Source: Ilex aquifolium
Lineage: Eukaryota > Streptophyta > Magnoliopsida > Aquifoliales > Aquifoliaceae
NCBI GenBank assembly: GCA_951799425.1
Contig: OX637401.1
Coordinates: 16,827,501 to 16,891,500 of the forward strand
Length of the DNA: 64,000 nucleotides
Direction: 5' to 3'
In this document: positions 14,636 to 49,143 of the stretch, piece by piece
Numbering within the stretch: position 1 is the stretch's first letter
Layout of the letters: each line of letters begins with the position of its first letter
Notes under the pieces: model-generated
Told to the model about the DNA's origin: nothing
Database searches by the model: none
What the model saw: the letters and a program-made list of their open reading frames with translations, nothing else
Translations under genes and position numbers: made by a program

Positions 14636-14760
14636 ACAGTAGAGCTGAGTTTGAATTCTAAAATTTATCTTGAATTTTTCTTGAGTCAGATAAATTCTGA
14701 GCAAAACATAAGTTACATCTAAAGATCTATGCTAATAACCCTAAAAGATTCTGGCTGGAT

Positions 14761-15696
14761 ATGGGAGGTTTGAGTGGTCGTTGGCAGAAGATAGTGTTTG
14801 AGAAGAATGTATTATATTGTTCGAATTGTTTGAAACAGGGACATGACAATGGGAGTTGTCGAAAGAAAAAGCAAAAAGAGGGTGTGAATGTTTCAGTGCA
14901 ACATGCTGGGAAACCTTCTAATAAGGGGAATCTGGACCTTAAGAAGGGTGATAATGGTAAGGGTATTATGATGGAGGTAAATACAAATAAGGGAAATAAA
15001 GTTTTTAAACATAAGGAGGTATTGAAAGAAGTGGAGGTTGGAAATAGTTTCAATATTCTTGGAGTGCAGCAGGAACAGGTTCAAGGTTTGAATGTGGAAG
15101 TAGGTGAATGCTCTAATATGGATGCTGTTTTTCAGAGGGAAGATATGAGTAATGAAGTGAGTGAGAATACAAAAATTGATTCTGGTGGAGGGGGTAGATA
15201 TGATGATTTGTCGATGAGTTTGAATGAGGATGCAGGAGGTCCTAAAGAGAATGCTGAGAATGATGTGGAATTGATTTTAGAAAATGGGGATGTGTCTCCT
15301 ATTATTAATGAGTCAGTAATTGCTCTGAGTAAGGGGAAGGAGAATACAATGGAAAGGGAGGTTTCTAAGGAGAAGATGAATGAAAGGGAAGTTCCTGGCG
15401 GTGATATTAGTAAGCAATTTTCTCCATTTGCTGTTTCTTCTTTTTGGGTGAATAATGAGTATCGTGTTTGTGGAAAATGCTCTTTCTCTTTAGATGATGA
15501 GAATGGTTTGGTGAGGAATAAAGAACCTCCTGATAAGGGTTTCTGCTCTGATCAGGAGAGTTCCAGGAAATGCGCAGATCTCTCTGATAGTATGGAAGGC
15601 ATTGAAGAGCATTTGGTGGATCAAGAGGTTGCTAACTCTACTGATTCCAGTCCTAGGCAGACGCCTAGAGGTAATCTATCTATCTCCACCTTTTAA
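14761..15696 (+). CDS. LINE ORF1 (RNA-binding, CCHC zinc knuckle), N-terminally truncated
   Basis: 311 codons open. A CCHC knuckle, CSNCLKQGHDNGSC (about residues 20-33, spacing C-x2-C-x4-H-x4-C), sits close to the first Met. Family ORF1 proteins normally have a DUF4283 domain before it. The rest is low-complexity, rich in Glu, Asn, Lys and Ser. The role is binding of the LINE RNA. The stop overlaps the ORF2 start in the pentamer TAATG (15,694-15,698), an arrangement that would allow reinitiation. The chosen Met is simply the first in frame; the true start was upstream and is lost. Confidence 0.8.
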   Translation: MGGLSGRWQKIVFEKNVLYCSNCLKQGHDNGSCRKKKQKEGVNVSVQHAGKPSNKGNLDLKKGDNGKGIMMEVNTNKGNKVFKHKEVLKEVEVGNSFNILGVQQEQVQGLNVEVGECSNMDAVFQREDMSNEVSENTKIDSGGGGRYDDLSMSLNEDAGGPKENAENDVELILENGDVSPIINESVIALSKGKENTMEREVSKEKMNEREVPGGDISKQFSPFAVSSFWVNNEYRVCGKCSFSLDDENGLVRNKEPPDKGFCSDQESSRKCADLSDSMEGIEEHLVDQEVANSTDSSPRQTPRGNLSISTF

Positions 15697-17822
15697 TGAA
15701 TTTCATGTTATGGAATGTGAGGGGAGCTAGGAAAGATGCTTTGAGAAGCAGGTTAAAGAAGTTAATATACATGAATAAGATTGTTTTTTTGGCTGTCGTA
15801 GAACCTAAGATGGGATCTTCTAAAATTAGAGGATTTGCATCTAGTGTGGGCTTATCTTCTTTTGTGGTTAATTCTCTTGCTGAGAAGTATTTATGGTTGT
15901 TATGGAATGAAAGGATGGAGGTCAAAGTGGTTATGGAATATGAACAGTCTTTAACAGTGACTGTTTCTCATTTGGGTTCTTGTCCTGTGTTAGTTACTGT
16001 TGTCTATGCTTGCTGTGACCATGTGTTGAGGAGGCCATTATGGCATCATTTACATTTGGTTGCTGCTTCTTTTGATTTGCCTTGGTTAGTGATGGGAGAT
16101 TTCAATACTGTGCTTAACTCTGCTGAAAGATTAGGAGGGGCTTATCCTTCTAATGTTGCTATGAATGAATTTGGGGATTGCATTCATGAAGAAGGTTTAA
16201 TTGATTGTGGTTTTGAGGGGAGTAGTTACACATGGTGTAATAATCACCATGGAGTTTCTAGAATGTGGCAGCGCTTGGATAGGGTGCTTGTGAATAGTGA
16301 TTGGATCACTAAATTTGAGAGTACTCAAATCTTTCACTTGGCAAGAGGTAGTTCTGATCATTCTCCAATTCTAGTCAAGGTGGTGGAGTCTGGGGTCCAT
16401 CAAAGGATCTCATACTTCAAATTTCTGGACATGTGGACTGAAGATCATTCTTTTATGGATTTCGTAAAAGTAAATTGGTATGGAAGGTATTCAGATAATC
16501 CTATTGAAAATATTTTTTTAAAGATGAAGTTTCTGAAAGTTAAATTGAAAGAATGGAATAAGAATGTGTTTGGGAATATTTTTGAGAAGATTCAGGCTCA
16601 GGAGATGGAGTTAAAGGATGCTGAGAGGTGTTTGGAAGTGGATAGTTCTGAGGATAATCTCAGGTCTTTGGAGAATGCTAGAAGACAATTGGAGCATACT
16701 CTGAAACTGGAGGAATCCTTTTGGAGACAGAAGGCAAATGTTAAATGGGCATTAGATGGTGAGAGGAACACTAAGTTCTATCACACCATTGCCAAAAGTA
16801 AAGCTGTCAGAGGAAGGGTCAGCAAGATTAAAGATGAAGAGGGTGTTTGGTTACTTAATGAGGAGGAAATTTTTTCTCATGCTGTTTCTTTTTTCTCTAA
16901 ATTGTATAATTCAGAATCTCATGAATTGCTGGACAATATTTTTGAATCTATTCCTCGTATGGTTGGTGAGGCTGAAAATGTGAAACTGATTTGTGCTGCT
17001 TCTATGGAAGAGATAAAAGGTGTGGTTTTTTCAATGTCAGTGGAGAGTGCTCCAGGGGCAGATGGATTCTCTGGCAAATTCTTTCAAGTAGCTTGGGAGA
17101 TCATTCAGCAGGATATGTTTGAAGCTGTAAATTTCTTTTTGAATGGTGGGAGTGTGCCTAGGTCTGTTAATGCTACTTTGTTAGCATTGATACCTAAGAA
17201 GTCTAATCCAACTTCTTTTACAGAATTTCGTCCAATTAGTTTATGTAACTTTTTATACAAAGTTTTTACGAAATTGCTGGCTAAAAGGTTGGCTCTGTTG
17301 CTACCCTCGTTAGTATCAGAGGCACAGCATGGGTTCATACAGGGAAGGAGTATTGGAGATTGCATTTCTTTAGCTCAGTTTATGGTAGGAGAGCTTAATA
17401 GGAAGGTGGAGGCTGGGAACATTGTTCTTAAACTGGATATGATGAAAGCGTATGATAGAATGGAATGGGACTTTATCCAAAGAGTCTTAAGGTGTTATGG
17501 TTTTTCTGAGCTATTTGTGACTATTATTGGTAACTGTTTTAAAAATCAGTTCTTTTCAGTGTGCTTAAATGGACAGAGACATGGCTTTTTCCCAGCCTCT
17601 CGTGGTTTGAGACAGGGAGATCCTATTTCTCCCTCTCTGTTTATTCTGGCAGAAGAAGTTCTTAGCAGGGGGTTGACTAAGCTTTTTGTTGAAGGGTTGG
17701 TAAAGCACTTTCATACTGGTAGAGGGACAATGATAATTTCTCATCTGTTGTTTGCAGATGATACATTATTGTTTCTAAGGGGTAATAAGAGTTCTATGGT
17801 GAAGTTACTTGAGTTTGTATGA
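15696..17822 (+). CDS. LINE ORF2, N-terminal part: endonuclease and reverse transcriptase
   Basis: 708 codons. An AP-like endonuclease occupies about residues 1-230: LWNVRG at the start, MGDFN in the middle and SSDHSP near its end. The RT follows: FRPISLCNFLYK (about 510), HGFIQGRSI, KLDMMKAYDRMEW, GLRQGDPISPSLF and the FADD catalytic box (about 686). This is the machinery for target-primed reverse transcription. The frame ends soon after the FADD box because of one frameshift in the overlap with the next reading frame, so a full ORF2 protein is not encoded as read. Confidence 0.92.
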   Translation: MNFMLWNVRGARKDALRSRLKKLIYMNKIVFLAVVEPKMGSSKIRGFASSVGLSSFVVNSLAEKYLWLLWNERMEVKVVMEYEQSLTVTVSHLGSCPVLVTVVYACCDHVLRRPLWHHLHLVAASFDLPWLVMGDFNTVLNSAERLGGAYPSNVAMNEFGDCIHEEGLIDCGFEGSSYTWCNNHHGVSRMWQRLDRVLVNSDWITKFESTQIFHLARGSSDHSPILVKVVESGVHQRISYFKFLDMWTEDHSFMDFVKVNWYGRYSDNPIENIFLKMKFLKVKLKEWNKNVFGNIFEKIQAQEMELKDAERCLEVDSSEDNLRSLENARRQLEHTLKLEESFWRQKANVKWALDGERNTKFYHTIAKSKAVRGRVSKIKDEEGVWLLNEEEIFSHAVSFFSKLYNSESHELLDNIFESIPRMVGEAENVKLICAASMEEIKGVVFSMSVESAPGADGFSGKFFQVAWEIIQQDMFEAVNFFLNGGSVPRSVNATLLALIPKKSNPTSFTEFRPISLCNFLYKVFTKLLAKRLALLLPSLVSEAQHGFIQGRSIGDCISLAQFMVGELNRKVEAGNIVLKLDMMKAYDRMEWDFIQRVLRCYGFSELFVTIIGNCFKNQFFSVCLNGQRHGFFPASRGLRQGDPISPSLFILAEEVLSRGLTKLFVEGLVKHFHTGRGTMIISHLLFADDTLLFLRGNKSSMVKLLEFV

Positions 17823-19848
17823 AGGTTGTTCTGGACAGAGAATCAGCAGACAGAAAAGTTCCTTGATTTGTTCATCCAAAATTCCTCAGCACAGAGCTTT
17901 AATGTTGTCCAGATTAGTTCAAATTCCTATTAAACAGTGCCCAATTACTTACTTGGGCTGTCCTTTGGTGTGTGGTAGAAGTAGATTGAGAGATTTTGAA
18001 GATCTAGTTCTGAAATTTAAAGCCAGAATAGAAGGTTGGCAGGCTAGATTGCTTTCTAACATGGGGAGAGTGGTGATGGTGCAGTCTGTTTTAAACTCTG
18101 TTCCTGTACATTTGATGGCTTGTCTGAACTTGCCTAAAGGAATTCTTTCTAGATTGAATTCTCTTATGGCTTCTTTCATTTGGTCTGGTAAGGCAGGAGT
18201 AAGGAGGAGGCATTGGGTTTCTTGGCAGAAGGTTGCTAAACCAAAACAAGAAGGGGGTTTGGGGATTAGAAGGTTTGAGGATTTTCAGATAGCTTTTAGA
18301 ATGAAGCAAATTTGGGGGATTTTACAGGGGCAATCTCTTTGGGCTAAAGTTTTTACTGCAAAATTTTTGAAGGGGGGTCATGTTTTGAGATGTTCTAGTT
18401 ATGGCAAGTTGAAGAGCTTTAAAATGTTGCAGCCTTGGTTTGGTATGGTGGTTAGGAATGCTTTTTCAGTTGTTGGGGATGGCAGATCAGTGGATTTTTG
18501 GTGCTCAAATTGGTTGGGTTCTGGTCCTTTGTTGTTCAGAATCACTGGGTTACCTGTCTGCTTTCCTAAGCTTTCTGAGGTGTATGTTGGTAATAGGTGG
18601 CAGTGGCAAGTGTTGGGGGATTTTATTAATGATCAGTTGAGAGAAGAAATTTTAGCTACTGATGTTTGTTTATCTAACAGGCCTGATTGTTTGGTATGGA
18701 TGCCTAACACTAATGGTCTTTTTTCTGTTAAGTCAGCTTGGCAGCTTGTCAGGAATGGTGGGAGAGTGAATCAAGTGGCTTCTGTTATCTGGAAGCTAAC
18801 TGTTCCTCCTAGTGCTAAGTTGCTAGGATGGAGGCTGTTGAATAATGCTATTCCTTTGGATTCTAGGTTCCAGTCTATTGGGGTAAGTCTGGCCAGTAGG
18901 TGTGCTTTATGCTCTGCTGAAATGGAGAATGGTTCCCACCTGTTTGTTCATTGTAGTTTTGCTAATTTGGTTTGGTCTAAACTAGCAGCTCTGTGTGGTT
19001 TTCATTTGATTAATAATGAGTCTCCATTAGTTAGAATGATGAGATTGGTGAGAATTTTTAAAAAGGGCTCTTTGCATCATGCTTTGATGAGAGGTGTGTC
19101 AGTGACAGTGTACTGGATTCTTTGGAAGGAAAGATGTAGGAGAGTTTATGATGAAGGCTGTTTATCTACTCATGCTATTTTTGTAAGAGTTTGTGAGGTT
19201 TTGAGAATGCAGGCTAAGGTGTTCAGGCCTAATGCAGTAGAAGATGAAAGAGGAAAGGAAGTTTTACAGGCTTTGGGGATTGTATATGTTCAGAAGATTC
19301 AAATTATTGCTCTGTGGGTGAGATGGTTCCCTCCTCCTTTTGGAAAGTTGAAGATTAATGTTGATGGGGCTTCCAAAGGGAATCCTGGTAGAGCAGGGGG
19401 TGGAATGGTGGTCAGAAATCACTGGGGTAATCTGGTTATGGCTGCTTCATTATGTTATGGTGATTGTTCAAATATGGAGGCAGAGTTAAGGGCTTTGAGT
19501 GATGGACTGATTTTATTGGAAAGATATAACCAGCTGGGCTATCAGTTTCAGATTGAAACTGATTCTGAGGTCATGGTACAGATGGTGTTGAAAGGACATC
19601 ATAGAGCTTGGAAATTCTGGGGTTTATTGAGGCAGATTTTGGAGAGTTTGGACAGCTTGGAGTTCAGTTTGCAGCATGTTTATAGAGAGGCCAACTGCCT
19701 GGCAGATTATTTTGCTAATCTGGCAGTGCTGCAAGGTTATTCTTCTGTTTTTCTCCAAGATCAGATTGTTCCTGTGCAAGCAAGGCTACTGTTATTGCAT
19801 GACCAACAAGGGCTTCAGCTGCTGAGGAAGAAGAGGAAATTTATCTGA
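17809..19848 (+). CDS. LINE ORF2, C-terminal part: RT thumb, zf-RVT and RNase H
   Basis: 679 codons, beginning in frame at SLYEGCSGQRISRQKSS, which normally follows the FADD region directly. Next come the thumb region (ITYLGCPL, about residue 45), a zf-RVT segment (SAWQLV through CALC and HLFVHCSFA, about 305-395) and an RNase H domain (about 510-640) with NVDGASKGNPG, NMEAELRAL, ETDSEVM and REANCLADYFANLA. The acidic residues D, E, D, D are in place. It has no ATG of its own at the junction. A single net shift within 17,809-17,822 separates it from the upstream part. Confidence 0.9.
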   Translation: MSLYEGCSGQRISRQKSSLICSSKIPQHRALMLSRLVQIPIKQCPITYLGCPLVCGRSRLRDFEDLVLKFKARIEGWQARLLSNMGRVVMVQSVLNSVPVHLMACLNLPKGILSRLNSLMASFIWSGKAGVRRRHWVSWQKVAKPKQEGGLGIRRFEDFQIAFRMKQIWGILQGQSLWAKVFTAKFLKGGHVLRCSSYGKLKSFKMLQPWFGMVVRNAFSVVGDGRSVDFWCSNWLGSGPLLFRITGLPVCFPKLSEVYVGNRWQWQVLGDFINDQLREEILATDVCLSNRPDCLVWMPNTNGLFSVKSAWQLVRNGGRVNQVASVIWKLTVPPSAKLLGWRLLNNAIPLDSRFQSIGVSLASRCALCSAEMENGSHLFVHCSFANLVWSKLAALCGFHLINNESPLVRMMRLVRIFKKGSLHHALMRGVSVTVYWILWKERCRRVYDEGCLSTHAIFVRVCEVLRMQAKVFRPNAVEDERGKEVLQALGIVYVQKIQIIALWVRWFPPPFGKLKINVDGASKGNPGRAGGGMVVRNHWGNLVMAASLCYGDCSNMEAELRALSDGLILLERYNQLGYQFQIETDSEVMVQMVLKGHHRAWKFWGLLRQILESLDSLEFSLQHVYREANCLADYFANLAVLQGYSSVFLQDQIVPVQARLLLLHDQQGLQLLRKKRKFI

Positions 19849-23192: not shown

Positions 23193-26100
23193 TCATGTTG
23201 AATCAGGCTCAACCCTCAACCTTTTACTGCATCTGTCTTCCAAGTTGCTGATTGTTTCAGTTCCATCAATATTACGACTTCTCTTACCATTTACGTAATC
23301 CAGAAATACATGTGTGCCAACATCCTCGTCGATGTATAACGATTGTCCCTCATTACGTTCTTGAATATCTGGATTGTACATTAGATGAACACCACACTTC
23401 TTCACCTCTAGAGATGAGCTTATTTTGAAACAAACCACAATTCTTTCTCCACCTTTTATTGGGTACTCAAAATAACTTTTCGGTACATAGCTCACCCACG
23501 AATGCTCTTGCCTGGTTATTTGAATGCCACGGAAGGTCGACCGAAGGGTCCATTCATAACCATTGGTTTTGTCATAGATGATAGCAAAAGGAGCAGAGAT
23601 CAGGTTGCCTTTTTCCTCTGCTGCATAAACAGCCCAAAGAGTCATCCCCGAGAACTTATGCTCCACATCTAATGGCATATCGAAACATATTGAAGATCCC
23701 ATCACTCGATAGCTAAACCAATATGGAATCTTCCCACTTGGAAGGAAAATGTTGGAACCATTATGTTTAGAATATCCCTGTTACATGGAAATGGTGACAT
23801 GAGAGAGAGAGAGAGACCAACCTTAAAAAAAACTAGAGAGACCAACCTTAAAAAAACTATTCTTGAACACTTTTCCCAGATTGGTGCAGCAGTCCAGGTG
23901 AATCATTCGCATAGAATCGAGGTTGTCCAATTCCTCAATCTTAGATAGTCTAGTGCAATCAGAAACAAACAAGGTTGCCAATCTTTTGTAGTTTGATAGA
24001 TTTGGTAGTTTCTCCATTGATGTGCAATCATAAGCATATAATGATTGTAGATTAGGAGGAAGCTCTGTGAGTGATTGGAGACTTCTGCAGTTATGTAACC
24101 AGAGAGTTTCTAGCTTGGATAGTTGACAAAGGTTGGATGGTAGGCCACAGAAGTTATTCCTTGATAAATCCAATTCTTTCAGTGAGGATAAACTTCCGAG
24201 ATCAGTTGGAATATCTCCTTCATACAAACTGCAGTCACTCAGATTTAGTGTTCTTAAGGAACATAAACCAGTTATAAAAGGCGGTAGAAATCTGATGGAA
24301 TCGATATGTCTTCTTGGTGATACCCAAGACGAAATGAGAGTAAACCAAGATTTGGCTGATAAAATTTTGTTACATCCTTGTAGTGATAAGGTTGTAAGGT
24401 TCTTCAGAAGTCCACATGAAAAGGGCAATTGTTTAATAGCGGTTCCATCTGCAAGAAGCTCTTTGAGGCATTCTATATTCCCCAAATGCTCAGGCAATTC
24501 CTTTAGATTTGAGCAGCCAACGAGATTTAGAACTCTAAGTGATCTCAACTTGCAAATGCTACTTGGAAGCTCGCAAAGGTTCTCGCAATTTTTCAAACTC
24601 AACAAAGTCAGTCTATCCAAAACTCCAATTGATGGGTGAACCTCAAACAAAGTTGAACAATCTTCAAGGAATAATGTCTCCAACCTTGATACCCCAGTGA
24701 ATTCTGGGGTTTTTGTGAGGAACTTAGAGTGACTAAGATTGAGGACTTTCAAATTTTTCAGACTCTGAGACATCCAAGCAAAATAAGATTGTATAAGGGT
24801 TTCCTTCATGACAAACCATGCAAATTGTCCAACTATTAAAAAAAGAATAAGGTTGGAAAATTTTTCAATACCTTGATACCTGACCCAAGTTTTTTGATAT
24901 TACTATGTTGCATGTCTAGAGCAACAAGATTTTCTAGATGAAAATTGGATGGCAAATATTTCAAAGGGCAGTAATTCCAGCAAAGCCACCTTAACTCTCC
25001 TGATATATGTTCAAAGCTTCCAGCGAGATGCACGTAATTAATTTGAAGCAGTCTCAATTTCTCCATCCTTGCAAATGCTTTAGTCCTTAGATTTACATCC
25101 TTTAAAAACGGAAGGACTAGGACAATACCTTCAACTACTTCTGTTCCCTGATTTTAATGAAGAAACAACAAAATATTTGATAAATAATTTGCAACTTAGA
25201 GATATATGCAAGAGGAGAGAGAGAGAGCATGTTATGTATGTGTCTCTAAATATATCAAACTATTTATATAAACCTAAACTAAAAAATTGTGCTGCACTGG
25301 GAAAACTATTTATAGTGAAAAAAATTCGAGTAATTCTCTCTTACCTTTTGTTTTCCGAGTACATCACATATATCTTGATGATGCCACAGTCTGCTACGCC
25401 TTCCAGGCTCCTTAAGGGATTCTTCGCGAATAATTTCCCTTCCCATATCCCAAAGTAAATCATGCATCCTCAGTTCATTATTTTCATTAATTGTTAGTAA
25501 ACATCTATTAGTCAGAACATCAATTCCAATTTCTGAGAAGAAACCACAACCATTCAGTATAGTGATTACATATTCTTTATCCATTCCGATAAAGAAGCAT
25601 GCAATATCAAGGAATATATCTTTTACTTTATCATCATCTAGTGCATCGAAGCTTATTCTAAGTTTTTTTTGAATTTGATTGTGAGGGATATGCTTTAATT
25701 TCTCAAATGCACTTATCCATTCTGGCTTCGTTCTTCCAAACAAATACGAGCCCAAAACTTCAAGAGCTAGTGGAATTCCTTCGGCGTAGCTTAGTATGCC
25801 ATAAGAAAGCTCCAAATAATCGTCTAATGGCTTCGTTTGTCCGAAGGCATGCCAGCTGAAGAGGTTTAGAGACTCGGTATAGTTCAATTCCTTAACCTCG
25901 TATTTGTCATCTGCTTGAACTTGATTCAACAAATGCTCATCTCTTGTTGTGATAATGATTCTACTTCCTGAACCAAACCAGTAACGGTTCCCTGCTAATG
26001 AATTTAACTGTCCAATATGATCCACATCATCAAGAATAATAAGAATTCTTTTAGAACACAATCTTTCTTTCATCCAATTGATTCCTCTATCTATATTGTC

Positions 26101-29100
26101 AATCTTAAGGTCCTTGTACTTTAGAATTTCAGAAAGAAGCTGCTCTTGTAAATGAACAAGACCATTTAGCTGTTCAGAAATTTCTCTAACATTAGCAAGA
26201 AAACTGGAACTTTCAAACTGTTGAAAAATTAGATTATAAACAGCTTTGGCGAGGGTCGTTTTTCCTATTCCACCCATGCCATAGATCCCAATTATTCGGA
26301 CATCACTTGATTCATTGGTTAATAAAAAATTTATTTCACTAACACGAGAATCCATTCCAACAGGATGCTTGGCGACATTTAGATATGTATGGTTCACTTT
26401 GCACAAAACCTCCTCAACAATTTTTTGGATAAACTTCGATTCATGCCTGCAGTTTTGATCCAAACCAAAAAGTGAAATAACAAAGTTTAAGAAGTTTAAA
26501 TGAGTATTAAATACAAATAAAATACAGTAAATTGGGTGCTCAATTTTTAATAGGAGATTGGATCAAAGCAAACAGGCCGGAAAGAACATTATACTTAGAT
26601 ATTGTCTTTAAATGTTGTTTATAAGCAAATATGTCATTTTAATACGGATGCACCGTCAATACTGATTGTCACAAAAATGATATCTTTCCTAACCCCTAAT
26701 TACTATCCCTCATGTATGCAATGTATGAACGGGGGAGAAGACTTTCTTCCCCTAGGAATAGTGTCAAAAGAAAGGGCAATGAGGAAAGGGAAGTGGGACG
26801 ATGTAAATATGGGATATGTATGCACAAAAATGCTCCCCAATCGCAAGGAGACTTTTGTGTATTGTGAGTTACTTGGAAGAGTATTCCAAGGTCGTATCCA
26901 CAGGGAAGGTAGTGAATCAAGATTAAAGTGATTTGGTGAAAAACGGAAATGTAAAATCTTTTGTCTTGAGAGTTGATTGGTGAAGTGTATGCTAATGAAA
27001 ATGTAATGATAAAAACAAGTGTTGACAATTCCAAGAGATCACTCCAATGGGTATACCACCTCAACTCAAATCACTCCTCCTATTGAGCATGAATGAACGC
27101 TTGAATCACGGAAAGCCGAGGATGGCATCGATGAGTATCTAAGCATAAACCGTGACTAAGCCTACGGTTTATCAAAGACTCATCGACTAATCCATCTTCT
27201 ATCCGGTCAAAACGAACCATTTGACTCTAAAGGGAAAGAGGAGAAAGAGTTGAAATGGTATCCCCAAGGGAGATCCCTCTTGGTCTTGCCAACTAGAGGA
27301 TTTAGCTACTCATATTTGGAATGGAAATAACTATGTAATGGAGAAGCATTGCAAATCTATGAACTTCTAAAGTTACTAAGTATCAGAATTTATGAGCTAA
27401 AAGAACATGTATTTAAACCCATTGCATAGTTATGAGAAATGAAGAACTTGAAGCATTAATGGTGAAACATTAAATGAGCATTGAACTAACAAAACATGAA
27501 GGGAAAACAACATTCTTGGCATTCAATGAACTACTAAGAGTCTTACTCCAGATTACAAAACAGTGCAGTAGAAGAATATGCAAAAATCACAACTTTCTCT
27601 CTCTAAAAACTACTGTTCATCTTCTTCTCCGCCCAGAGTTTCTCTCTCTAAAAACCCTCTTACAGAAGTGCTCTGTGTCAAAAAAAAACTGCTTGCTCCT
27701 CCTCCCCATCCTTGGAGAACATTTCTTTCTCAAAAACGTGCCTGGGCATCCCCTGCAGCTTCAGCAGCAGCACCCAGCCTGCCAAGCCTGAACCAATAAG
27801 ATGCAGCATCCCTCTGCAACCCAGCTTGCCTTCTTCGTGTAATTTCTTTTGCTATGGAGAAAAACCCCTTTTCCCCCTCACTCCATATTCTGGAGAGGAA
27901 GGAGTCTCCTATCTGATTACTGGAGGGAGACAAACAGGGTATGACAGAGGTGTGCAGAGCTGGTCTGCACACCCAACAGCTCCTATTTTCTCTTTCTTCA
28001 ATTAATGCCATGGCTTCAAAGTCCAAGGATAAAGATATGGAGGGATATTCTGTATGTTGAGCGAGTCAGAGGAGTGAGGGAGACTAGCTGGTGGGGCCCT
28101 TGAAGCAGCAGAAACAGTTCAACAGAATTTTAGATGAAACAGCATCGGATACCGGTAGCTCGTGCACTGACTACCGGTAGCTGATACACCAGAAACAATT
28201 GGCTACCGGTAGTCGTGCGGTAGCTGCAACTCCAGTAGTATTTGGCTACCGGTAGCTCTGCGGTAGCTGATTCTCCAGTGGTATTTGGCTACCGGTAGCT
28301 CTGCGGTAGCTGATTCTCCAGTGGTATTTGGCTACCGGTAGCTCTGCGGTAGCTGACTGATGTTGATTCCTTCTTGCTTCCTTCTTTTAATTCAAAATCA
28401 AAGATAGCCCTCATCTCCATTCATCACAGCTTTGAAACAGTCGACATTTGCCTTGTTTAACTGCACAACTCACACATTACCAATAAGTGCTTGATTAACG
28501 CAATTCACATCAATATAATCTCCAAAAATTAATCTAACCCGAGATGATTTGCACAACAAAATATACAAAATTTGGTGTGAATCAAATACTACGAATAAAA
28601 AATCAAGCCAAAAGTAAGCTAGTAATTCTAGACATAATCCATAAACCGGTATTAAATTAATTATAAGTTAATGGATTTGGGTTTAATTTTAGTGAAGTTT
28701 GGTGATAACCAAGTGGACATACTACACATGTCAAATTAATGGGTAAACACGATGATGATGCATAAATCGGTCTTATGCACCACCGGTCAAGTGTTCAGTA
28801 ATTAACTCAAGTAAGACAAATATGTAGAGTGGTTCGGTCAACGTGACCTACTCCACTATAAGGGGCTAGGATGACCTAGGTATTTTATTACTTCGAGGAG
28901 TGTAGGTAGAGGAGGGAGAGCAATAGAGATACAAGCTAAGAGAGAGAGAGATGAGAGAATGATAGCAGATGTGCTCGGTGCCCCCCAATTATTGGTGGGG
29001 CTTACAATTTATAGTGCCTCCTAACAGACCGAGACGCCTTTTCAATAACTAAGTGGCTAATTTGGTGGAGCAGGCTCTATCTTCTCAACGGATGAGGCAG

Positions 29101-32100
29101 TTACGAAGCTCTCCTTAAGATCAGGTCAAACGATGACGTGGTTGACTTGTTCCAAGGCGGTGCAGATGAGGCTCCTGGGATGACCCTGTCTACTCTCAGG
29201 TGATGTAGCTCCTGAAACCCTGATGAGCCTGACTGGGCCTCTTTTGGGTTGGACCAATTGAGTTTCGTCTAGCTGGGCTCTTTATTCTCTTTATTTAGGC
29301 TGGACTTATAACTTGAGTTGGGCCCTTTGGCTTGGCATATCATTTGCCCCTCAATGCCCCAAGTCCAATAAAACTTGGAGAAGAGGGCATTTAGTTGAAT
29401 TTGGATTCTCGTGACAAAGACTCCTTTGACTGACGACTCTTTTACTTCATGATATATCTCACCAGGACACCTCCAACTATATAACCCCTTCATTTTATTT
29501 CCCCTCTAAAAGAACCCTAGGTCATAAATAAGAGCTTTTTCCTTCATTTCCCTTTTATACGAACTTGAGAGAGAGATCCTTCGTGAGATTCTTCAAGAAG
29601 AAAGGCAAGGAGTGAGATTCTTGAGTGGAGTGTTCAGAGGGCAATGTCGGTTGAAGGAGAAGATGTGCAAGAGTTCGTTGATCTTGGTGAAGAGCTTGGA
29701 GCGGTCGAGATCCCAGGCGGACACTGGCGTTGTCGAGGCTGGGAGACGAGCAGCAAAGGGGCAAGGCACCATAGGCTCCGCCAAGCATGGCGACCCAGGT
29801 TGCTGAAATTGAGGCGCCATGGGCGCCGCCAGGCGTGGCGACCTAGGAGGCACTGGTCTATGGAAAGACGTTGGCGCTAGAAGGAGGACAGACTATGGGC
29901 GTTGAAGGTGGAATTGGGCGCTCCCTGGGCACGGGCCTGATTAATGTGGGCCCTGGAGAAGAGGCGTCAAAGGCACCCTGCGGGGATGAACGATGGTGCC
30001 ATGGGCGCTGCTAGATGGTCGTTCTGATCACGGAGGAGTCATCGCGAGGGATACCAAGTATGCTCGGGATCGCGTCGACACCATAGCAGGCGAGCGCGCC
30101 AAGGCCTGGGCGCGGTCAGGCGGCGCCGTGTGTAGCTGGGTCGTCGTCGTTGGGCTAGCCAGGTGCGGCAGAGATGGACGCCAGGCATGGATCTTTACGA
30201 GGTTCAGAGAAGAGCCCTCTGGGTATTTTTGGTGGTGATGATTCTGGTAAAACGACAGATGATATAGCTCGCTCAAGTGGAACTCCACGGAGTCAGATCC
30301 CTCAAGGCTCTCCTGGTAGTGGCCCGGGCAATGTTTCTCGCCCTCGCAACAACAAACATTGAGGAAATGTAGCTCTTGATGATGACGGATCGAAAGTAAG
30401 TACCATATCTAGTACCCTCAATACTGATGCTGATATTTTGCGAATTGTATCCTCTTATAATATTCTCCATACGGTGTTGTGTCGTTGAGCTGGAATGGGT
30501 GGACCTGCTTGTGATGACTCTTTTGGAGATATTTCCATTTATGAGGAGGTGCTTGAGGCTGGGATGAGGTTCCCAATGCCTTCTTTTGGTTGTCGCATTC
30601 TCCACTGTTTTTTACTTGCCCCTGGGCTCGCGAGAGGGTTTCTCGGGCTGAGGCGGATCCGCGATTGGCTCATGAGAGGGCCGCCAAGTCTGATGATGAT
30701 TTAGAGAGTGGCCTCGCAGATGCCTTCATTGATAGCTACGAGGAGTTTCGGGGAAAGATTTTTGCTGCTTTCCCTGATATTGACCTTTTAGGCTTTGTGC
30801 CATATGAGGCGTCTGATGATGCTGATGGTGACTCTGACGGTGCAGAGGGTGAGGACGAGGAGGATGGCGGCCGTGAGAGTAGTTAGAGTGCTGGAGACTT
30901 TTGATTTTTTTTTTTTTTAGAAAGGCAGTGTGTAGCCTCCTTTTGTAAAAGTGGTTGTTTACAACTGATGTTCGTTTAAAATAGAATGCAAGGAACTTTT
31001 TCAAATAAATTTAGAAAATTTTATTTGATGACTGCTCGTGCTAAGCAATGGTGAGTAATAACCCAAAAAGGTATAGGAAAAAATAAAATCAAGCCCCCAA
31101 CTTTACTACTTCTGCCCTCCTAAAGTGTCATTGGTAGTATCTCTTCAAATGCTCAGCATTCCAGGGATGGGGTAAGACTTTTTCTTCAGAATATTGGATC
31201 TTGTAGGTGCCTGGCCTCACTACTTCTGTTATAAGGTAGGGTCCTTCCCAGTTTTGTCCAAGCTTCCCTTCTTGCAAATACTTTGTGGCGAGGATTACTT
31301 TCTTGAGGACTAAGTCTCCTGGTTGGAAGGAACGAGGCTTCACCCTCGAGTTGTAGTATCTTGTCATGCGGCGCTTGTACTCCGCATTCTGAACCATAGC
31401 CATTTCTCTTTCCTCATCTACCAAGTCGAGGTTGACGCGGAGTCCTTCCTCGTTGGTGATGGGATCATGGTGTTGGACCCTTAGAGAATGTACTCCGATT
31501 TCCATAGGTATGACTGCCTCAGTTCCAAAGGCGAGTGAAAAAGGAGTTTCTTCAGTCGGAGTCCTTGGCGTTGTTTAGTAGGCCCATAATACACCCAGGA
31601 GTTCATCTACCCACATACCCTTTACTCTTTCTAGCCTTGTCTTTAGGTTGCGTAGTACTATTCTGACTGTGACCTCTGTCTGTCTGTTGGCCTGCGGGTG
31701 CGCTGGACTGGAACGAGTTCAGGAGTTTGTTGTCGAATTTCTTGCCATTGTCACTGACTATGGTGTGGGGTACTCCAAAGCGACAAACTAGGTTCTTCCA
31801 GATGAAATCCTTGACCTTTGCGTCTATTATCTTCGCTAAGGGCTCGGCCTCCGCCCATTTTGTGAAGTAGTCGATGGCTATTACCACAAACTTACACTGC
31901 CTCCTGCTCAGAGGCAAAGGGCCCAAGATGTTGATCCCCCATTTGGAAAAGAGTCATGGACTTGTGATGGCTGTCAGTTCTTCTGGTGGCTGTCTGGGCA
32001 TAGTAACAAAGCGTTGACACTTGTCGCATTTCCTGGTGAACTTATGTGTGTCCCTAACCATGCTAGGCCAGAAGTAACCCCGTCTGAGTGCCTTGTGGGC

Positions 32101-35100
32101 TAGGGAGCGTCATCTAGAGTGGTTTCCACAAAATCCTTCAAGGATCTCTCGTAGGGCATAGTTAGCTTCCTCTAGGGAGATGAAACGTAGTAGTAGTAGG
32201 GAGTAGCCCTTTTTGTACAGGATGTCTTGCAAGATGGTGAACTTAGAGGCTTTCATTCTGAGCTTCTTGACCTCGAACAGGTTGTCTGGCAACGCGCCCT
32301 CCTAAAGGTATGCCCTTATTGGGATCCTCCAGTTCGACTCGGCAAATGTGCAGTTGACGTTAGTGGCTTCCACGTTTAGCCTGCTTGGTTTGAACTGGTG
32401 ACCGATGAATGCTAGTCCTGATGGGGCCTCTGAGGATGAGGCAAGCCTGACTAGTTCATCCGCAGCGAGATTGTCTCCCCTCGGGATGTGACAAATCTGG
32501 AAGTGGTGGAACTTAGTTAGCAAGGCTTGCACCATAGCAAGGTACTCTTGCATTCTCGTTCCTTTTGCTTCGAACTCGCCCTTCACTTGGTTGACTATCA
32601 ACTGAGAATCACTATAAGTGATGAGGTGTTGGGCTTCCATTTCAATTGCCAACCTTAAGCCAGAGAGGAGGGCTTCATATTTTGCTTCATTGTTGGAGGC
32701 CGCAAAGTGGAGCTTCGCGGCATACTTGATAGGAGCGCCATCGGGGTTGATCAGGATTAGGCCCGTTCCACCTCCTTCGCTAGTCGAAGAGCCATCAACG
32801 TAGAGCTTCTAGGGAGGCGGCAGAAAGGGGGCCTTGGAGGCCATGGTGGACGCCAAGGCGCCCGCCTTTGGTGCTAGGATGCCTTGGGTGCCAAGGCAAG
32901 GCGCCATGTTGTTCTGGGCGCCAAGTCTAGGTGCTTGATTGTCCTTCGGATGAGGCTTCTTGAGGTGCTGAGGTTTCGTTGTCCTCTTCCTCTGCCGGTG
33001 TGAGCTCGACAACGAAGTCCGCCAAGACTTATGCTTTGATGACTGCCCTTGGTTGGTACTGCACATCGAACTTGTCTAGCTCTACTGCCCACTTAAGGAG
33101 TCTTCCAGAGACATCTGGCTTTCCCATGACTCTCTTTAGAGGCTGGTCCGTGACGACGACGATAGTGTGACTCTGGAAATAATGTCGGAGACGCCTTGCT
33201 ATTGAGATTAGAGCGAGTGCCAGCTTTTTTAGCCTTGAATATCTTATCTCTGCTCCTCGGTATGCCTGCTCACATAATAAACAGGCTTTTGCACTCCTTC
33301 ATTGTCCCTAATGAGGATAGAGATTACTACTGATGGGGAAGCAGAGAGGTACAAGTACAAAGTTTCACCTGTCGTGGCATGTGAAAGGATGACGTGACCT
33401 ACTCCACTATGAAGGGCTAGGATGACCTGAGTATTTTATTACTTCGAGGAGTGTAGGTAGATGAGGGAGAGCAGTGGAGATACAAGCTATGAGAGAGAGA
33501 GGAGAATGATAACAGATGTGCTCGGTGCCCCCCAAGTATTGGCGGGACTTATAATTTATTGTGCCTCCTAACAGATTGAGACACATTTTCAGTAACTAAG
33601 TGGCTAATTTGGTGGAGCTGGTGCTATCTTATCAATGGATGAGGCAGTTATGGAGCTCCCTTTAAGATCAGGTTAAAGGATGACGTGGTTGACTTGTTCC
33701 AAGGCGGCGCGGATAAGGCTCCTGGGATGACCCTGCCTACTCTCAGGTGATGTAGCTCCTAAAAACCTGATAAGCCTGACTGAGCCTCTTTTGGGTTGGA
33801 CCAATTGGGTTTCGTCTAGCTGGACCTTGAGTTGGGCCCTTGGACTTGACACATCACATGGTATGGATCTGACTAAACACGATATAAAAATAAAATGAAT
33901 TTGATACAAAATGACCCCGAATAATCATGTTTATGAATGGATTAAATAAGAGGTGAACGAATTTTGACATGACATAATTTATAGGATTTCAAAGCATGAC
34001 ACCAACAAGACCATTGACAGTCCTTAGCCAAAAGGTCAAGATTGTGGATAAGACATGCACACAATTTGCCCAATGCAATCCTGAAATTTTTTTGGTATGT
34101 TTAAAATTTTATAATTTTTAAAATTTTATAAAATTTGCTCCCCCTAAAATATTTTAAAATTTTGATTACCTTTATACTTGATTAATACTTTTAAGATCTA
34201 AAAAAATTTGAACCTAAAAATGTATTAAGTGATGTAGTTTAATGAAAAATTTCATGAGTTACAACTCGAATAACGATACATTTACAATACCAAAAAGAGA
34301 TACTGTACTGAAAATTAAAATTTTAATTGTTATGGATGAAATTCAAGTTTGCATATTTTGTAATGGATTAAAATTTTCTTTCATATTCTTATAACTAAAT
34401 ATTTCTATATTTAAAATTTGGTTATTATAAATCATATTTGTAATATGATATATTGATTGATTGATTTTCTAGTATTGACATATCAACATATGTGATAAAT
34501 TGAATAGTTTTAACGTTATGATTTTAATTTTAACAATTAGTTATAATTTGCCCCTACTGCACATAAATCCTGGCTCCACCCCTGGGTAGGGGCCAGGGGG
34601 CTTGGGCCCACAATAAAAAAAATATTTTTAAAAAAAAAATATATGTTTCATATTTCTTTTTGAATAATTTCAACTGTGTCCATCCAATTGAATTAGATAA
34701 AACAAAATTAATTAGGTCAAAAAAATTGAGTACAGGTTACTGGAATAAAAGAAAAAAGATGGCTAAATCCCATAACAATTCTCTGAAAGTCAGTAAACTA
34801 AAGAAAAAATATTGAGTTACAATTATTTTATGAAAATTAGAGTTTTCCTTTTTCTTCTTCTTTTTTTTTTCCTCCGAAATCTGTTTGGTTAGTACAGTAA
34901 AATGTGATTTAGAATACTATTAATGTCTAAGTTGGGTTATTGCTTTTACTTGTGTCAAATATATTATATGGTTTATCCTTGATGTATAAATGTCATCTTT
35001 TTAAATTTTTTAATAGTCATGATGAAATACTTCAAAAGAAACCCATAGTTAGAATTGCCACTTCATACAAAAAGAGACGGTGATTCTAATTCTTCAAAAC

Positions 35101-36669
35101 AAAATCACATCGAATTTAACTTGGTGGATCTTCCATCGGATTCAGGCCCTACGACATCGAATTATGGATTATAATCCTAACGATCGAGACCAAATTCATA
35201 CAACATATCTACAATTAGCCTAATTTTTTTGTAAATGGATATAATTAACCTCTTTTTAGTTGTTGTTTATTTGCATAAAATATATATAGTGGCTTTAGGC
35301 TCTTTTATGTTTAATGAATCTTTTAAATATTAAATATGATGTAAAAAAATAAATATATCATGTTATTTTTATATATCGGACGACAAAATAAAACTTCTAG
35401 TTAAAGTGTGCTCACCCTAAATCATTCTCCTCACTCTGCCACTGCAAACAAGCACACAATACACACGTGCAATGACAGAACTACATTGCGCCCCCCCCCC
35501 CCCCCCCCCCCACATTTCAGAATTTACTCTATTCCCCTTTTAGATTTTTAAGAATTCTATGTATACTTACAGGTTTTCAAAAACTCCTTTTTGTATAAGG
35601 GGTATTTAATTAGTGCATACAAAAAGCTTAATAGCATGACACCAAACATTTAATAACCTAATGGGGGATATTGCTTACATGGACGCGCGAGATCTTATAA
35701 AATAAAATACGTATTTGTCCAAATTTAATGACCCTTGAAAAAGAAAAAGGAAAAGTGCTGCAAAATCAAATTACAAACGTGACTTTATATCATCAATAAT
35801 ATACTAAATCATGACTAATGTTTATAATTGTATTATTTGGAACTAATATATATGATTCTATATAATTTAAAACTATTACATCATGTCATAAATGAGGGAA
35901 TATATTTATAGGGACTAATTTTAGAATTTTATGAACTATATTTTTGTTATATATAGTATCATATAATTATAGGGACTTCATGATTAAGAATATAATACTA
36001 ATAGTAACTTATCGAATGACCTCTTTAATAAAATTCTTAACCATGTCATTGTTTCTGTTTGGCCCCCTCATCATAAAATTATGCTTCCGTCCCTGGATTT
36101 AACTACAAATAGAGATAATAAGTCCACAAGGAATAGAATAGAGATTACCCATTTGCAACATTTTGTAAATCCCACCCTGATAAATTTGCAACTTCAATAA
36201 GTGCAGCTCTCCATCTCTCCACCACCTCAATTTCGTTCGCAAAGCACTCTGAATGCCTTGCAAACGCTTCTTCAAAGCTCCCCGTTTGCTTGCATACATC
36301 GGATGGATCGACATCATAAAATACAGGAAGAACCAATTGCCTTATCGTTTTTCTGCATTTGAGGATCTCTGCAAGTTCATCCAGACACCATCTGGAAAAA
36401 GCATAGTTCTTCGAAAATACGACAATAGAAATCTTTGACTCTCGAATTGCTTTCTGTAGTTCCAACGAAATTTTTTTCCCTCGTGGTAATTCATCAACAT
36501 CCCTAAAGATGTGAATACCAGCCTGAACCAAAGCAGTGTAGAGATGATCGGTGAAGTTTTTTCGTGTATCTTCACCTCTAAAACTCAGGAAGACATCGTA
36601 CTTCCAGTGAGGTGTTGAAGAAGAAGATGAAGAAGAAGAAGGGTAATCTTGAGTGCATTTACCAGCCAT
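23193..36669 (-). CDS. TIR-NBS-LRR (TNL) disease-resistance protein, five exons, open frame
   Basis: Exons: 36669-36149, 26446-25345, 25147-24872, 24764-23847, 23777-23193; total 3,402 bp, 1,133 aa, all GT-AG. TIR about 24-170 (YDVFLSFRGEDTR; WCLDEL with the NADase glutamate E98). NB-ARC: GMGGIGKTT (230-238), LIILDDVD, GSRIIITTRDE, GIPLAL (397-402), MHDL (501-504). LRRs about 590-900 (NLSHSKFLTKTPEFTG is typical). C-terminal jelly-roll (C-JID) about 940-1133, starting near NIFLPSGKIPYWF. A basic tail (KRSRN, SKRLR) may be a nuclear signal. Known of the class: an intracellular effector sensor that oligomerises and makes TIR-derived nucleotide signals. Start: Met at 36669, before a Ser-rich leader; an in-frame Met 26 codons upstream (36747) is an alternative. 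Introns: 9,702, 197, 107 and 69 bp. The first contains a gypsy element; the donor of the last lies in a 25-bp tandem repeat. Confidence 0.93.
23797..23857 (-). repeat. 25-bp tandem duplication carrying the exon 4 splice donor of the TNL
   Basis: The stretch with AAG-GTTGGTCTCTC occurs twice, 25 bp apart (donors at 23,846 and 23,821). Only the first copy keeps the frame into exon 5, because the frame reaches a stop just before the second. The intron is 69 bp, with a GA run in the middle. Confidence 0.8.
26850..28560. repeat. Unclassified repeat-like block in TNL intron 1
   Basis: Non-coding sequence with the character of plant non-autonomous retroelement tails: AAGGTCGTATCCACAGGGAA near 26,889, and ACATCAATATAATCTCC near 28,508. 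I could not find matching termini or a reading frame of known family, so class and limits are uncertain. Short plus-strand frames near 27,470-28,005 are serine/proline-rich and look spurious. Confidence 0.4.
28146..28355. repeat. 43-bp minisatellite built on the palindrome CTACCGGTAG
   Basis: Units start at 28,201, 28,244, 28,287 and 28,330 (partial). The second and third are identical and the first differs at a few positions. More degenerate copies precede 28,201. Each unit carries GCTACCGGTAGC followed by CTGCGGTAGCTG, so the array is rich in short hairpins. Confidence 0.9.
28753..29342 (-). repeat. 3' LTR of the intronic gypsy element
   Basis: 590 bp, plus-strand ends TGATGATGCATAA and GGCATATCA. 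Its body matches 33,391-33,856 (ACGTGACCTACTCCACTAT through GGGTTGGACCAATTG). Confidence 0.8.
29478..30886 (+). pseudogene. Antisense ORF region of the Tat-type element
   Basis: GC-rich reading frames on the plus strand, opposite to pol (29,644-29,880 and 30,590-30,886), preceded by TATATAA at 29,478. The last frame ends in an acidic tail (DDADGDSDGAEGEDEEDGG). Tat-lineage elements (Retand, Grande) are known to carry such an antisense ORF between pol and the 3' LTR. Function is unknown; this copy looks broken. Confidence 0.5.
33391..33856 (-). repeat. 5' LTR remnant of the intronic gypsy element
   Basis: About 466 bp homologous to the left LTR; ends GACACATCA on the plus strand. It covers only part of the LTR length. 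Confidence 0.78.
33857..36148. other. AT-rich part of TNL intron 1
   Basis: No coding signal. It contains a C run (about 35,488-35,511) and two stretches with the wording of old plant DNA transposons (CACCCCTGGGTAGGGG near 34,575; CTTCCGTCCCTGG near 36,085), whose limits I cannot set. Confidence 0.5.
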
Positions 36670-43612: not shown

Positions 43613-44623
43613 TCACTCCCAGTTGGGCCCCATCTTTCCATCTATTGGGTCCCGAGTGTTTGCTACCACTCTTCTGAGTACTAGATCACCCGCTTGGAAC
43701 TCTCGGGGTTGGACTCTTTTGTTGTAGAGTTTGGACACCCCTTCTTGATACTTGGCCAATCTCAAGGCTGCCATTTCCCTTCTTTCTTTCGCAAGGTCCA
43801 AATCCAAGCTGAGTTGGTGGTCATTGCCCCCAGCGTCGAAGGCTTGTGTTCTAATGGTAGGAAGGCCTACCTCGAGAGGGATGACAGCCTCCATCCCGTA
43901 GGCGAGAGCGTAAGGCGTCTCCCCAGTCGATCTTCGAGGGGTGGTTCTATATGCCCAGAGGACGTTCAGGAGCTCTTCCACCCACTTCCCCTTGGCCTTT
44001 TCCAATCTCTTCTTGATCCCACTGATGATAGTTTTGTTCGAGCACTCAGCCTGTCCGTTGGCCTGTGGATATGCGGGAGTGGAATAATAATTCCGGATTC
44101 CAAGATGCTCGCAGAAAGACCTGAAAGGTGCACTGTTGAACTGTGTCCTGTTGTCCGATACGAGTGCGCGGGGAACCCCAAACCTTGTCACTACGTTCTT
44201 CCATACGAACTTCTTGGTGTCTATGTCCCTGATATGGGTGAGAGGCTCCGCTTCCACCCACTTGGTGAAATAATCGGTTCCTACGATCAAGAACCTCTTG
44301 TTTCCAGGAGCCGTTGGGAGGGGTCCGATCAGGTCGAGCCCCAATTGAGCGAATGGCCAAGGGCTAGTTAGTGGGTGCAAGTCCCCAGTCGGTTGTCGGA
44401 TGATTGGGGCGTATCTCTGGCATTGATCGCATTTTCGGACATAGGTCTGCGCATCTTTTTGCATTCGCGGCCACCAATACCCTTGAGACATGATGCGGTG
44501 GGCCATGGACCGTCCACCTGAGTGCCCCTCACATATGCCTTCGTGTACTTCGTAGATGAGTGGCTCAATTTTATCTTCGAGGACGCACAGTAGATAGGGC
44601 CCAGAGAACGACTTTCGGTACAA
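43613..44623 (-). pseudogene. Gypsy integrase region
   Basis: Shows the HHCC zinc-binding part (HEGICEGHSG, CDQCQRYAP), the DDE core (DLIGPLP, TDYFTKWVEAEPL, RFGVPRALVSDN) and a C-terminal FQAGDLVLRRV segment. Part of the fossil element above. Confidence 0.85.
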
Positions 44624-44734
44624 CTTCTGGTCCGGAGAGACCCAAAACCTTGGGGCCTTCAGCCTTATTTTCCTAGCTTCCTTGGAGCATTCGGGGAGTT
44701 CTCCGGAAAGGAGAAACTTGAGGAGTGGGTCAGT

Positions 44735-46798: not shown

Positions 46799-46816
46799 CC
46801 GCCCTGACTGTAACTG

Positions 46817-47305
46817 CTATTTGTTCAGGACCTCCTCGGGGTCCCGCTCCTTCTCCTTGCTGGCGACCCCTGCCCTTACTGCTGAATAAAAATAACTTTT
46901 GGCAGACGCTTGGTCCCCGTGGATTTCCCTCACTCCCTCCGGGGTAGGAAACTTCAACTTCTGGTGATAAGTGGAATGCACCGCCCCCAGCGCATGTAAC
47001 CAGGTTCGTCCCATAATGATGTTGTATGGAGAATCGGAGTCGATCATCACGAACTCTGTGCTGATTGTAATGGGCCTGGCGACAACCGGCAGTGTGATTT
47101 TGCCCAGGGGCAAGGCGTACGAGCCATTAAATCCAACAAGGGGTGTACTGACTTTGGTAAGATCTTGACAGCCCAGCCCCATTCGCTTCAAGACCTCTAG
47201 GTACATCACCTCCAAAGAGCTCCCGGAGTCCATCAAGACTCTTTTGACGTTAAAGCTTTCAATCTTCAAGGTCAGGACCAAGGCATCCTCGTGGGGGAGG
47301 ACCAC
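46817..47305 (-). pseudogene. Gypsy aspartic protease region
   Basis: MDSGSSLEVMYLEVLKRMGL contains the DSGSS active-site form of plant gypsy proteases. Part of the fossil element. Confidence 0.75.
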
Positions 47306-47817
47306 GCCCGCGAGGTCGGCATCGGAAAAAGTGATGTCCCCTTCGTCGGTCCGCGGCCTCTTCTCTGGTCAGCCACCCTCCATCTCATCCACTTTTCTGG
47401 TAAAAGCCATCCTCTTAAGGTCGGACCTAAAGAGGGTTTTGGACGTAGGACGCTCCAGAGGGCAGACGTGGATAACGTCAATCACATTTCCTCGAATGAT
47501 GGCCTCGTCGTTGGCGCCACGGATCTCCATTGGGGCCATTTCATCAATATATTCCATCAAATGCCCTTCCTGCACTAGCTTCTCCAGGAAAGACTTAGAG
47601 ACCCTGCAATTTTCGATCAGGTGACTGAAGTCTTGGTGGTAGGAGCATTTCACCTTTTGGTTTCGGGTGGACGGATCACCCTGCATCTTGGCCGGTCATT
47701 TGAAGAAAGGCTCCCTCTTGATCTTATGGAGGAGTTTGTAGATGGGCTCCTTGAACAGGGTGTGGACCCCCTTGAAAGATCCTCCTGACGGAGGCACGAG
47801 TCCCTTCTGGGGAGGGG

Positions 47818-49100: not shown

Positions 49101-49143
49101 TGTTCTTCAGGAAGTTGAATCTTTCCCACAGACGGCGTAAAAT

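Follow-up and report, generated by a model that had tools for sequence, protein, structure and literature searches.

A predicted intact TNL gene of Ilex aquifolium with an old and a young sense-strand LTR insertion in its first intron

Results

Within the window, the 64,000-nucleotide stretch of holly DNA analysed here and to which feature positions refer, five exons on the minus strand between 36669 and 23193 join into a 3,402-bp frame with a single terminal stop and none inside; all four introns are GT-AG and the exons share one frame. Exon 1 (36149..36669) carries the start codon and a TIR domain. Exon 2 (25345..26446) encodes the NB-ARC domain and WHD_ROQ1, a ROQ1-type winged-helix domain, and is followed by exon 3 (24872..25147), a linker or predicted start of the leucine-rich repeats (LRR), exon 4 (23847..24764) with LRR-like repeats, and exon 5 (23193..23777) with the post-LRR C-JID domain and the stop codon. 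The exon limits come from the frame join, the domains of exons 1, 2 and 5 from Pfam, and the LRR assignment of exons 3 and 4 from the translation; together they give the TNL order of TIR, NB-ARC and LRR/C-JID. The motifs GMGGIGKTT, ILIILDDVD and RMHDLL, which we take to be the P-loop, kinase-2 and MHD motifs, are all intact when the translation is inspected by eye. Judged by its sequence, the locus is an intact TIR-NBS-LRR immune-receptor gene, and it is the lowest-coordinate member found in a tandem array that runs on one strand at 16.85-17.2 Mb of contig C11. An earlier note on this DNA had proposed the five GT-AG exons, their 3,402-bp sum free of internal stops, and a TIR exon lying 9.7 kb from the NBS exon; the exon join and the domain matches confirm these points, with intron 1, as defined by the GT-AG frame join, measuring 9,702 bp (26447..36148, minus strand).

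The 9.7-kb distance, taken by itself, could mean that the TIR and NBS exons are chance neighbours, or were brought together in assembly, and do not form one gene. The comparison covers 14 genomic copies, eight close and six farther; exon 5 lies outside it for the six farther copies, whose lesion counts are not used. Exons 2-5 are found in all eight close copies and exon 1 in seven, and in the seven close copies with the same exons intron 1 spans 0.7-1.4 kb, so the TIR and NBS parts belong to one gene. The pieces of intron 1 are colinear with these single-gene paralogs, in which the insertion points appear as empty sites, and this speaks strongly against an artefact or chance neighbours, an explanation that is extremely improbable; two unrelated genes were rejected on the same colinearity between the exons. 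Over about 1.9 kb, the upstream and TIR sequence likewise runs colinear with that of the copies. In sum, the shared exons, short first introns and empty sites of the paralogs bear out the earlier reading of one gene with a retrotransposon-filled intron. Three close copies (p17127, p17016 and p16957) have intact frames of 3,405 bp and p17163 has an open frame of 3,429 bp, and with these intact or open copies the present gene has an identical donor and a near-identical acceptor; departures from the conserved splice sites and ends are confined to n11800, whose acceptor is broken, and to some copies with changed 3' ends. Three of the eight close copies (c6_11966, p17071 and n11800) are already broken.

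Most of the excess length of intron 1 is accounted for by two separate LTR insertions, A and B, both on the same strand as the gene; without them, and without one copy of each target duplication, 2,666 bp remain. In this genome a long distance between TIR and NBS exons is no rarity: among 92 pairs, built from 104 of 151 TIR matches and 98 of 111 NBS matches, 12 exceed 3 kb, the present gene included, where the rows left out are mostly partial or weak matches and some gaps may come out too long. The present intron is not the longest of its kind, since gaps of 18.8 kb on C5 and 14.1 kb on C7 exceed 9,702 bp. The C7 pair has a stop in both exons; the C5 pair has none and may be mispaired.

Insertion A (28753..33856, minus strand) is an old Ty3/gypsy element of Tat-like type, oriented like the transcript and with its interior partly deleted; its limits come from alignment of its LTRs and from the empty sites in the paralogs. 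Its 5' LTR (33856-33392) and 3' LTR (29342-28753) differ by a K2P distance of 0.103, and it is flanked by an imperfect 5-bp target duplication, CCATG/TCGTG, with two mismatches. Profile matches along the minus strand place a remnant RT_RNaseH (33032..33298, profile positions 39-105 of 105) before RVT_3, a second, archaeal-type RNase H (aRNH; 32305..32808), then an integrase zinc-binding piece, H2C2, in an open piece of its own (32109-31957), and a separate open rve piece (31953-31606) that scores below the curated cut-off. An aRNH between RT-RNase H and integrase is diagnostic of the Tat lineage, and the order in A fits this label, the lineage being assigned solely by domain order. The pieces scanned yielded no match to gag, protease or RT, and no primer-binding site was seen. 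The site of A is empty in seven of the eight close copies. The limits and orientation first proposed for this element were recovered unchanged, and its description as an old Tat-type gypsy element stands as to age and domain order; it is not full-length, as the 3' end of the 5' LTR is lost and fails to align, and the interior is partly deleted. The transition/transversion ratio of the LTR pair is 3.0, against the 1.2 that six segments of intron and 3' flank give in comparison with n11800 (83:69, pooled by hand over the six segments; P 0.016), and suggests what long-methylated DNA would show; the share of LTR transitions in CG and CHG contexts, 12 of 33 (P 0.066), is a suggestive bias.

Insertion B (26663..28584, minus strand) is a solo LTR of 1,922 bp in transcript orientation, with TG...CA ends, delimited by alignment of its copies and by empty sites in six of the eight close copies. 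A perfect GTATT duplication lies on either side of it (28589-28585 and 26662-26658). The LTR ends 216 bp upstream of exon 2 and differs by at most 0.8% from each of two other genomic copies; by these comparisons B is a young insertion, later than A. A tRNA-Asp primer site, TGGCGCCGTTGCCGGGGA, adjoins the LTR in copy L079 and is absent beside copy L080 and beside solo LTR B. We take this site to be an Athila-like Ty3/gypsy feature, and on that basis B is tentatively assigned; a first impression of a Copia LTR was dropped when the site beside L079 pointed to an Athila-like element. The minisatellite reported earlier in the intron is present, with a 43-bp unit (28175..28356, minus strand), but not as an independent feature: it is part of LTR B, a second insertion that the earlier note had overlooked, and both of the other copies aligned to B contain it. 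Many full-length B-type copies vary in length by about 43 bp, which is one repeat unit.

A neutral model of the time since A arrived predicts 3.8 stops and about 5 frameshifts in the coding sequence, where none is observed (P(0) about 1.4e-4, with frameshifts derived from intron indel rates that may overstate coding indels; P(0) = 0.02 from stops alone). By this model, the open frame since the arrival of A runs counter to neutral expectation. The dN/dS between the present gene and p17127 is 0.31 (95% CI 0.24-0.40). On the branch of the present gene since its split from n11800 there are 32 nonsynonymous and 15 synonymous changes (outgroup state defined by agreement of at least four of p17127, p16957, p17201, p17163 and c6_11966; seven ambiguous sites set aside), a ratio indistinguishable from neutral (P 0.21) and resembling the 46:19 of the broken copy n11800 (P 0.30); branch-specific purifying selection was accordingly rejected as proof of function. 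B is too young for the open frame to say anything on function after its insertion. The gene may be recently dead or dying, with B, or A and B together, silencing it or blocking productive splicing, and the frame open for want of time. The near-identity of B to its two relatives, the neutral branch ratio and the three broken close copies are compatible with such a loss, against which stand the lesion-free frame since A and the intact splice sites; we consider it unlikely, though a serious alternative.

Exon 1 ends at the donor G|GTAA (GGG TAA), and retention of intron 1 would therefore place an in-frame TAA at the donor and close a TIR-only frame after glycine 174. This TAA is found, counted by eye, in 25 of 30 TIR loci examined out of 151 matches; an automatic count gave 22 of 30, including L034, whose donor is lost, and missing L020, L022, L023 and L031, where the match breaks off a codon earlier. 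The donor TAA is family-wide and not peculiar to the present gene. An enrichment of poly(A) signals in intron 1 was rejected: the intron has eight sense AATAAA hexamers, and 200 Markov sequences averaged 6.6.

Discussion

Comparison within the genome establishes the gene structure, both insertions and their relative ages, the empty sites and the frame free of lesions since A. Upon this anatomy, the explanation that we hold to be probable is an intact TNL whose intron was enlarged by A and then by B, and which would be transcribed through and spliced with partial dependence on heterochromatin machinery, giving some TIR-only messages. The TIR-NBS intron, about 2.7 kb without insertions, was first enlarged by the sense-strand, Tat-like A; later a recent, sense-strand, putatively Athila-like element entered, of which only solo LTR B is left. 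Transcription through the intron and splicing would provide the full receptor in at least one tissue, the silenced LTRs would impose some dependence on the general machinery of heterochromatic introns (EDM2, IBM2/ASI1, EDM3/AIPP1), and early polyadenylation within the intron would give some TIR-only messages, closed by the donor TAA. By analogy, EDM2-type read-through control of the present gene is plausible. Our confidence in this explanation overlaps with that in its rivals, the anatomy being common to them.

The most credible of these rivals, itself tentative, holds that A and B are passive passengers, spliced out as in any long intron with no regulation and no special EDM2-type dependence. 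The absence of excess poly(A) signals and the 12 long gaps among 92 pairs agree with it, as does a Brassica TNL whose first intron holds a 5,310-bp LTR element, judged by its authors to be without effect on resistance (PMC11140098). Against it, both LTRs are sense-oriented, the transition excess of A suggests methylation, and some Arabidopsis introns of similar kind alter 3' ends without EDM2 or IBM2 (PMC7529245, PMC10241880). Two transcription units, with a TIR-only message from exon 1 and a separate start for the NBS-LRR part, for example at LTR B, we consider improbable: the sense-strand LTR B adjoins the NBS exon, and starts downstream of exon 1 that yield a TIR-less protein are reported for RPP4 (PMC7529245), yet donor and acceptor are both kept in correct phase, and a promoter at LTR B is purely putative. 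More doubtful still is a switchable split locus, in which heterochromatin, when kept, would give the full TNL and, when lowered under stress, would let LTR A end TIR-only messages and LTR B start TIR-less NBS-LRR messages, so that both halves of the receptor would be made apart; as so young an insertion, B should still be segregating among holly plants.

The locus offers a dated and polarised example outside Arabidopsis, with an old and a young sense insertion in one coding intron. Its intact tandem sisters with short introns, together with a near relative with empty sites, make the readability of NLR genes through intronic retrotransposons testable within one plant.

An LTR-filled first intron of a TNL is already known. 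In the passages found of the published work, the closest arrangement is the Brassica rapa CRA8.1.6 or Crr1a-type TNL, whose 5,310-bp LTR retrotransposon in intron 1 is placed in the susceptible parent by those passages, the abstract being ambiguous on this point, and, according to the authors, leaves coding sequence and resistance unaltered (PMC11140098). The holly gene resembles it in being a TNL whose first intron carries an LTR element, and differs in having two such insertions instead of one, an older one and a younger one now reduced to a solo LTR. The passages found of the peach Rm1/Rm2 paper mention no transposon.

The earlier note had drawn a parallel to the control of Arabidopsis RPP7, in which EDM2 acts through H3K9me2 to suppress an early 3' end. 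In RPP7, COPIA-R7 lies in intron 1 and the early 3' end falls at its 5' LTR (PMC7529245); more widely in Arabidopsis, certain heterochromatic introns need EDM2/IBM2-type factors, 3' ends shifting upon loss of EDM2 or IBM2 (PMC7529245, PMC10241880). The parallel holds insofar as both are NLR genes whose first intron contains an LTR element, and an early 3' end at an LTR is possible in holly. It fails in that RPP7, as described in the passages found, is classed as a CNL with a 5'UTR intron, and its early-terminated transcript consists of non-coding 5'UTR (PMC7529245, PMC8116057), whereas the holly gene is a TNL with Ty3/gypsy-type LTRs in an intron that separates coding exons 1 and 2, such that early termination would leave a TIR-only frame.

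For that outcome, five FPA-sensitive TNLs (WRR9, RLM1B, RPP4, DAR4/CHS3 and AT5G40910), which form TIR-only messages via intronic polyadenylation (PMC8116057 Table 2), are closer known cases than RPP7; their TIR-only frame is seen in RNA, that of the holly gene being a possibility read from the DNA. RPP4 is also, like the holly gene, a TNL with elements inside it, and forms chimeric gene-element isoforms; its intron-1 insertion, ATREP15, is a Helitron and its LTR element, ATCOPIA4, lies in exon 6 (PMC10241880), whereas both LTR insertions of the holly gene are intronic.

Gene structure and close copies

The TNL gene lies on the minus strand (36669-23193) of the window (C11:16827501-16891500, in a plant assembly spanning 800 Mb in 103 contigs). 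Joining and translating its exons confirmed, and the results below extend, the earlier observation of five GT-AG exons with 3,402 bp in a single frame (1,133 residues plus stop). Exon 1 (36669-36149) encodes a TIR domain in its frame, exon 2 (26446-25345) encodes NB-ARC and WHD_ROQ1, and exon 5 (23777-23193) encodes C-JID, all recognized by Pfam, with exons 3 (25147-24872) and 4 (24764-23847) completing the spliced frame. By eye, the translation contains what we take to be P-loop, kinase-2 and MHD-type motifs. The TIR exon does lie 9.7 kb from the NBS exon, which is the third longest gap among the 92 TIR-NBS pairs listed (median 1.2 kb), after C5:32934791-32955195 (18.8 kb, free of stops and possibly mispaired) and C7:11716455-11732149 (14.1 kb, both exons with a stop).

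Close relatives have their TIR and NBS exons paired on the same strand in a tandem array (C11, 16.95-17.2 Mb), and a further copy lies on C6. We compared eight close copies with the studied gene. Three of them (p17127, p17016 and p16957) share its five exons and splice sites and have intact 3,405-bp frames. In p17163, where exon 1 carries a 27-bp insertion, the frame is open at 3,429 bp. The 3′ end of p17201 is altered, 4 bp are deleted from the NBS exon of p17071, and c6_11966 is interrupted by stop codons, of which the first falls at residue 249, and by 1-bp indels. The nearest relative by NBS DNA (94%), n11800 (C11:11799919-11801016; L040, L076, L077), is 5 Mb away; its acceptor is broken (AA), exon 4 contains one inserted base pair, and the shared intron includes ~3 kb of additional sequence private to this copy; no TIR exon was found in the ~6.4 kb read 5′ of its NBS exon. 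In all seven close copies having exon 1, intron 1 measures 0.7-1.4 kb. The studied locus is colinear with the copies upstream of the start and through exon 1, the intron pieces and exons 2-5, and its TIR and NBS exons are, as judged from sequence, one gene.

We note that two copies 55.5 kb apart (C11:17.017 and 17.073 Mb), each compared with the studied gene, show near-equal identities to it. Partial TIR copies adjoin both, and one of the two has lost 4 bp from its NBS exon; the pair would reflect either recent segmental duplication or duplication in the assembly.

Two insertions in intron 1

Read against the close copies, intron 1 holds two separate insertions, not one: element A (33856-28753; 5,104 bp, imperfect duplication CCATG/TCGTG) and solo LTR B (28584-26663; 1,922 bp, TG...CA, perfect duplication GTATT). 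The flanks of A match sequence no more than 20 bp apart in seven of the eight copies. Those of B adjoin in six, with few bases in common, as expected from target duplication; p16957 is without the intron part around this site, and in p17201 B is absent, with a small gap alongside. Both insertions are in transcript orientation, A as judged from its domains and B from the primer site 3′ of the LTR in another copy, L079. Without them, intron 1 would be 2,666 bp. The 43-bp minisatellite that the earlier note mentioned together with the element is present, but it is contained within LTR B and is part of the second insertion. In addition, an AT-rich stretch at ~34051-35448 is absent from the tandem copies and partly common to n11800.

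The domains of A are, in order, RNase H (the first found, N-terminally truncated), RVT_3, integrase zinc-binding and rve. Such an order is the mark of the Tat lineage, which A fits, in keeping with the Tat-type gypsy element proposed previously. A comparison of its LTRs (5′, 33856-33392; 3′, 29342-28753) gives 44 differences in 465 sites (K2P 0.103), and the 5′ LTR does not align at its 3′ end. Substitution rates between 6.5e-9 and 1.3e-8 per site and year would put A at about 4-8 million years; by transversions, this old element has ~0.74 of the age of the split from n11800. Transitions and transversions number 33:11 in the LTRs versus 83:69 in intron and 3′-flank segments compared with n11800 (P 0.016), an excess that long methylation would give; the sequence-context bias of the transitions is weak (P 0.066). 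Relatives of A elsewhere include five likely LTR pairs, inferred from coordinates, spaced 9.2-9.4 kb start to start, and others at 8.7 and 13.6 kb. The corresponding spacing in A is 4.5 kb, so that A appears to lack roughly half of the element.

Across the full LTR, the four best other copies are 99% identical to B. The two of these that were aligned each show a difference of 0.8% from B, which at the same rates sets an upper limit of about 0.3-0.6 million years on its age. Among its relatives, likely LTR pairs spaced 9.8-12 kb point to fuller copies of its element.

The window contains other elements. A further Ty3/gypsy element (43613-49106, minus strand) carries long open pieces with gag, RT, RVT_3 and integrase, its RVT_3 being 48% identical to that of A over 124 residues. 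A LINE (14701-19848, plus strand) with endonuclease, RT, zf-RVT and RNase H-like (RVT_3) domains is probably young, given its long open frames, and an RVT_2 match (61433-62005, minus strand) is an RT piece of Copia type.

Retention of the reading frame

Pairwise dN/dS of the studied gene is 0.31 against p17127 and 0.52 (0.37-0.76) against n11800. Taking intron rates as neutral, the coding sequence should have acquired 3.8 stops and ~5 frameshifts after A was inserted, and none is observed (P ~1.4e-4; stops alone, P 0.02). However, polarised changes on the gene's own branch (32 N:15 S) are not distinguishable from neutral and are similar to the 46:19 counted for the broken copy. Taken together, the lesion-free frame and the neutral-like branch mean that the frame was probably held during part of the time that A has been present, which speaks to past retention and not to present function, above all after B.

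Comparison with known systems

The earlier interpretation, that this gene may depend on read-through control, appears plausible in part. At the COPIA-R7 LTR in intron 1 of Arabidopsis RPP7, EDM2 is described as binding H3K9me2 and suppressing an early poly(A) site; when EDM2 is missing, a short non-coding transcript accumulates (PMC7529245). RPP7 is a CNL with 5′UTR events in Table 2 of PMC8116057, the same table giving TIR-only products by intronic polyadenylation for five TNLs (WRR9, RLM1B, RPP4, DAR4/CHS3 and AT5G40910). At the studied gene, a transcript ending in intron 1 would encode the TIR, one glycine and a stop, as would likewise be the case at 25 of the 30 TIR loci examined. Intronic elements are reported as tending to collect in resistance genes (PMC10241880), and a B. 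rapa TNL, like the studied gene, has an LTR element in intron 1, there of 5,310 bp and judged in that report to be without effect (PMC11140098). In sum, the locus is of a known kind, to which it adds two insertion layers that can be dated, each in sense orientation within an intron between coding exons, and sister genes that can serve as internal controls.
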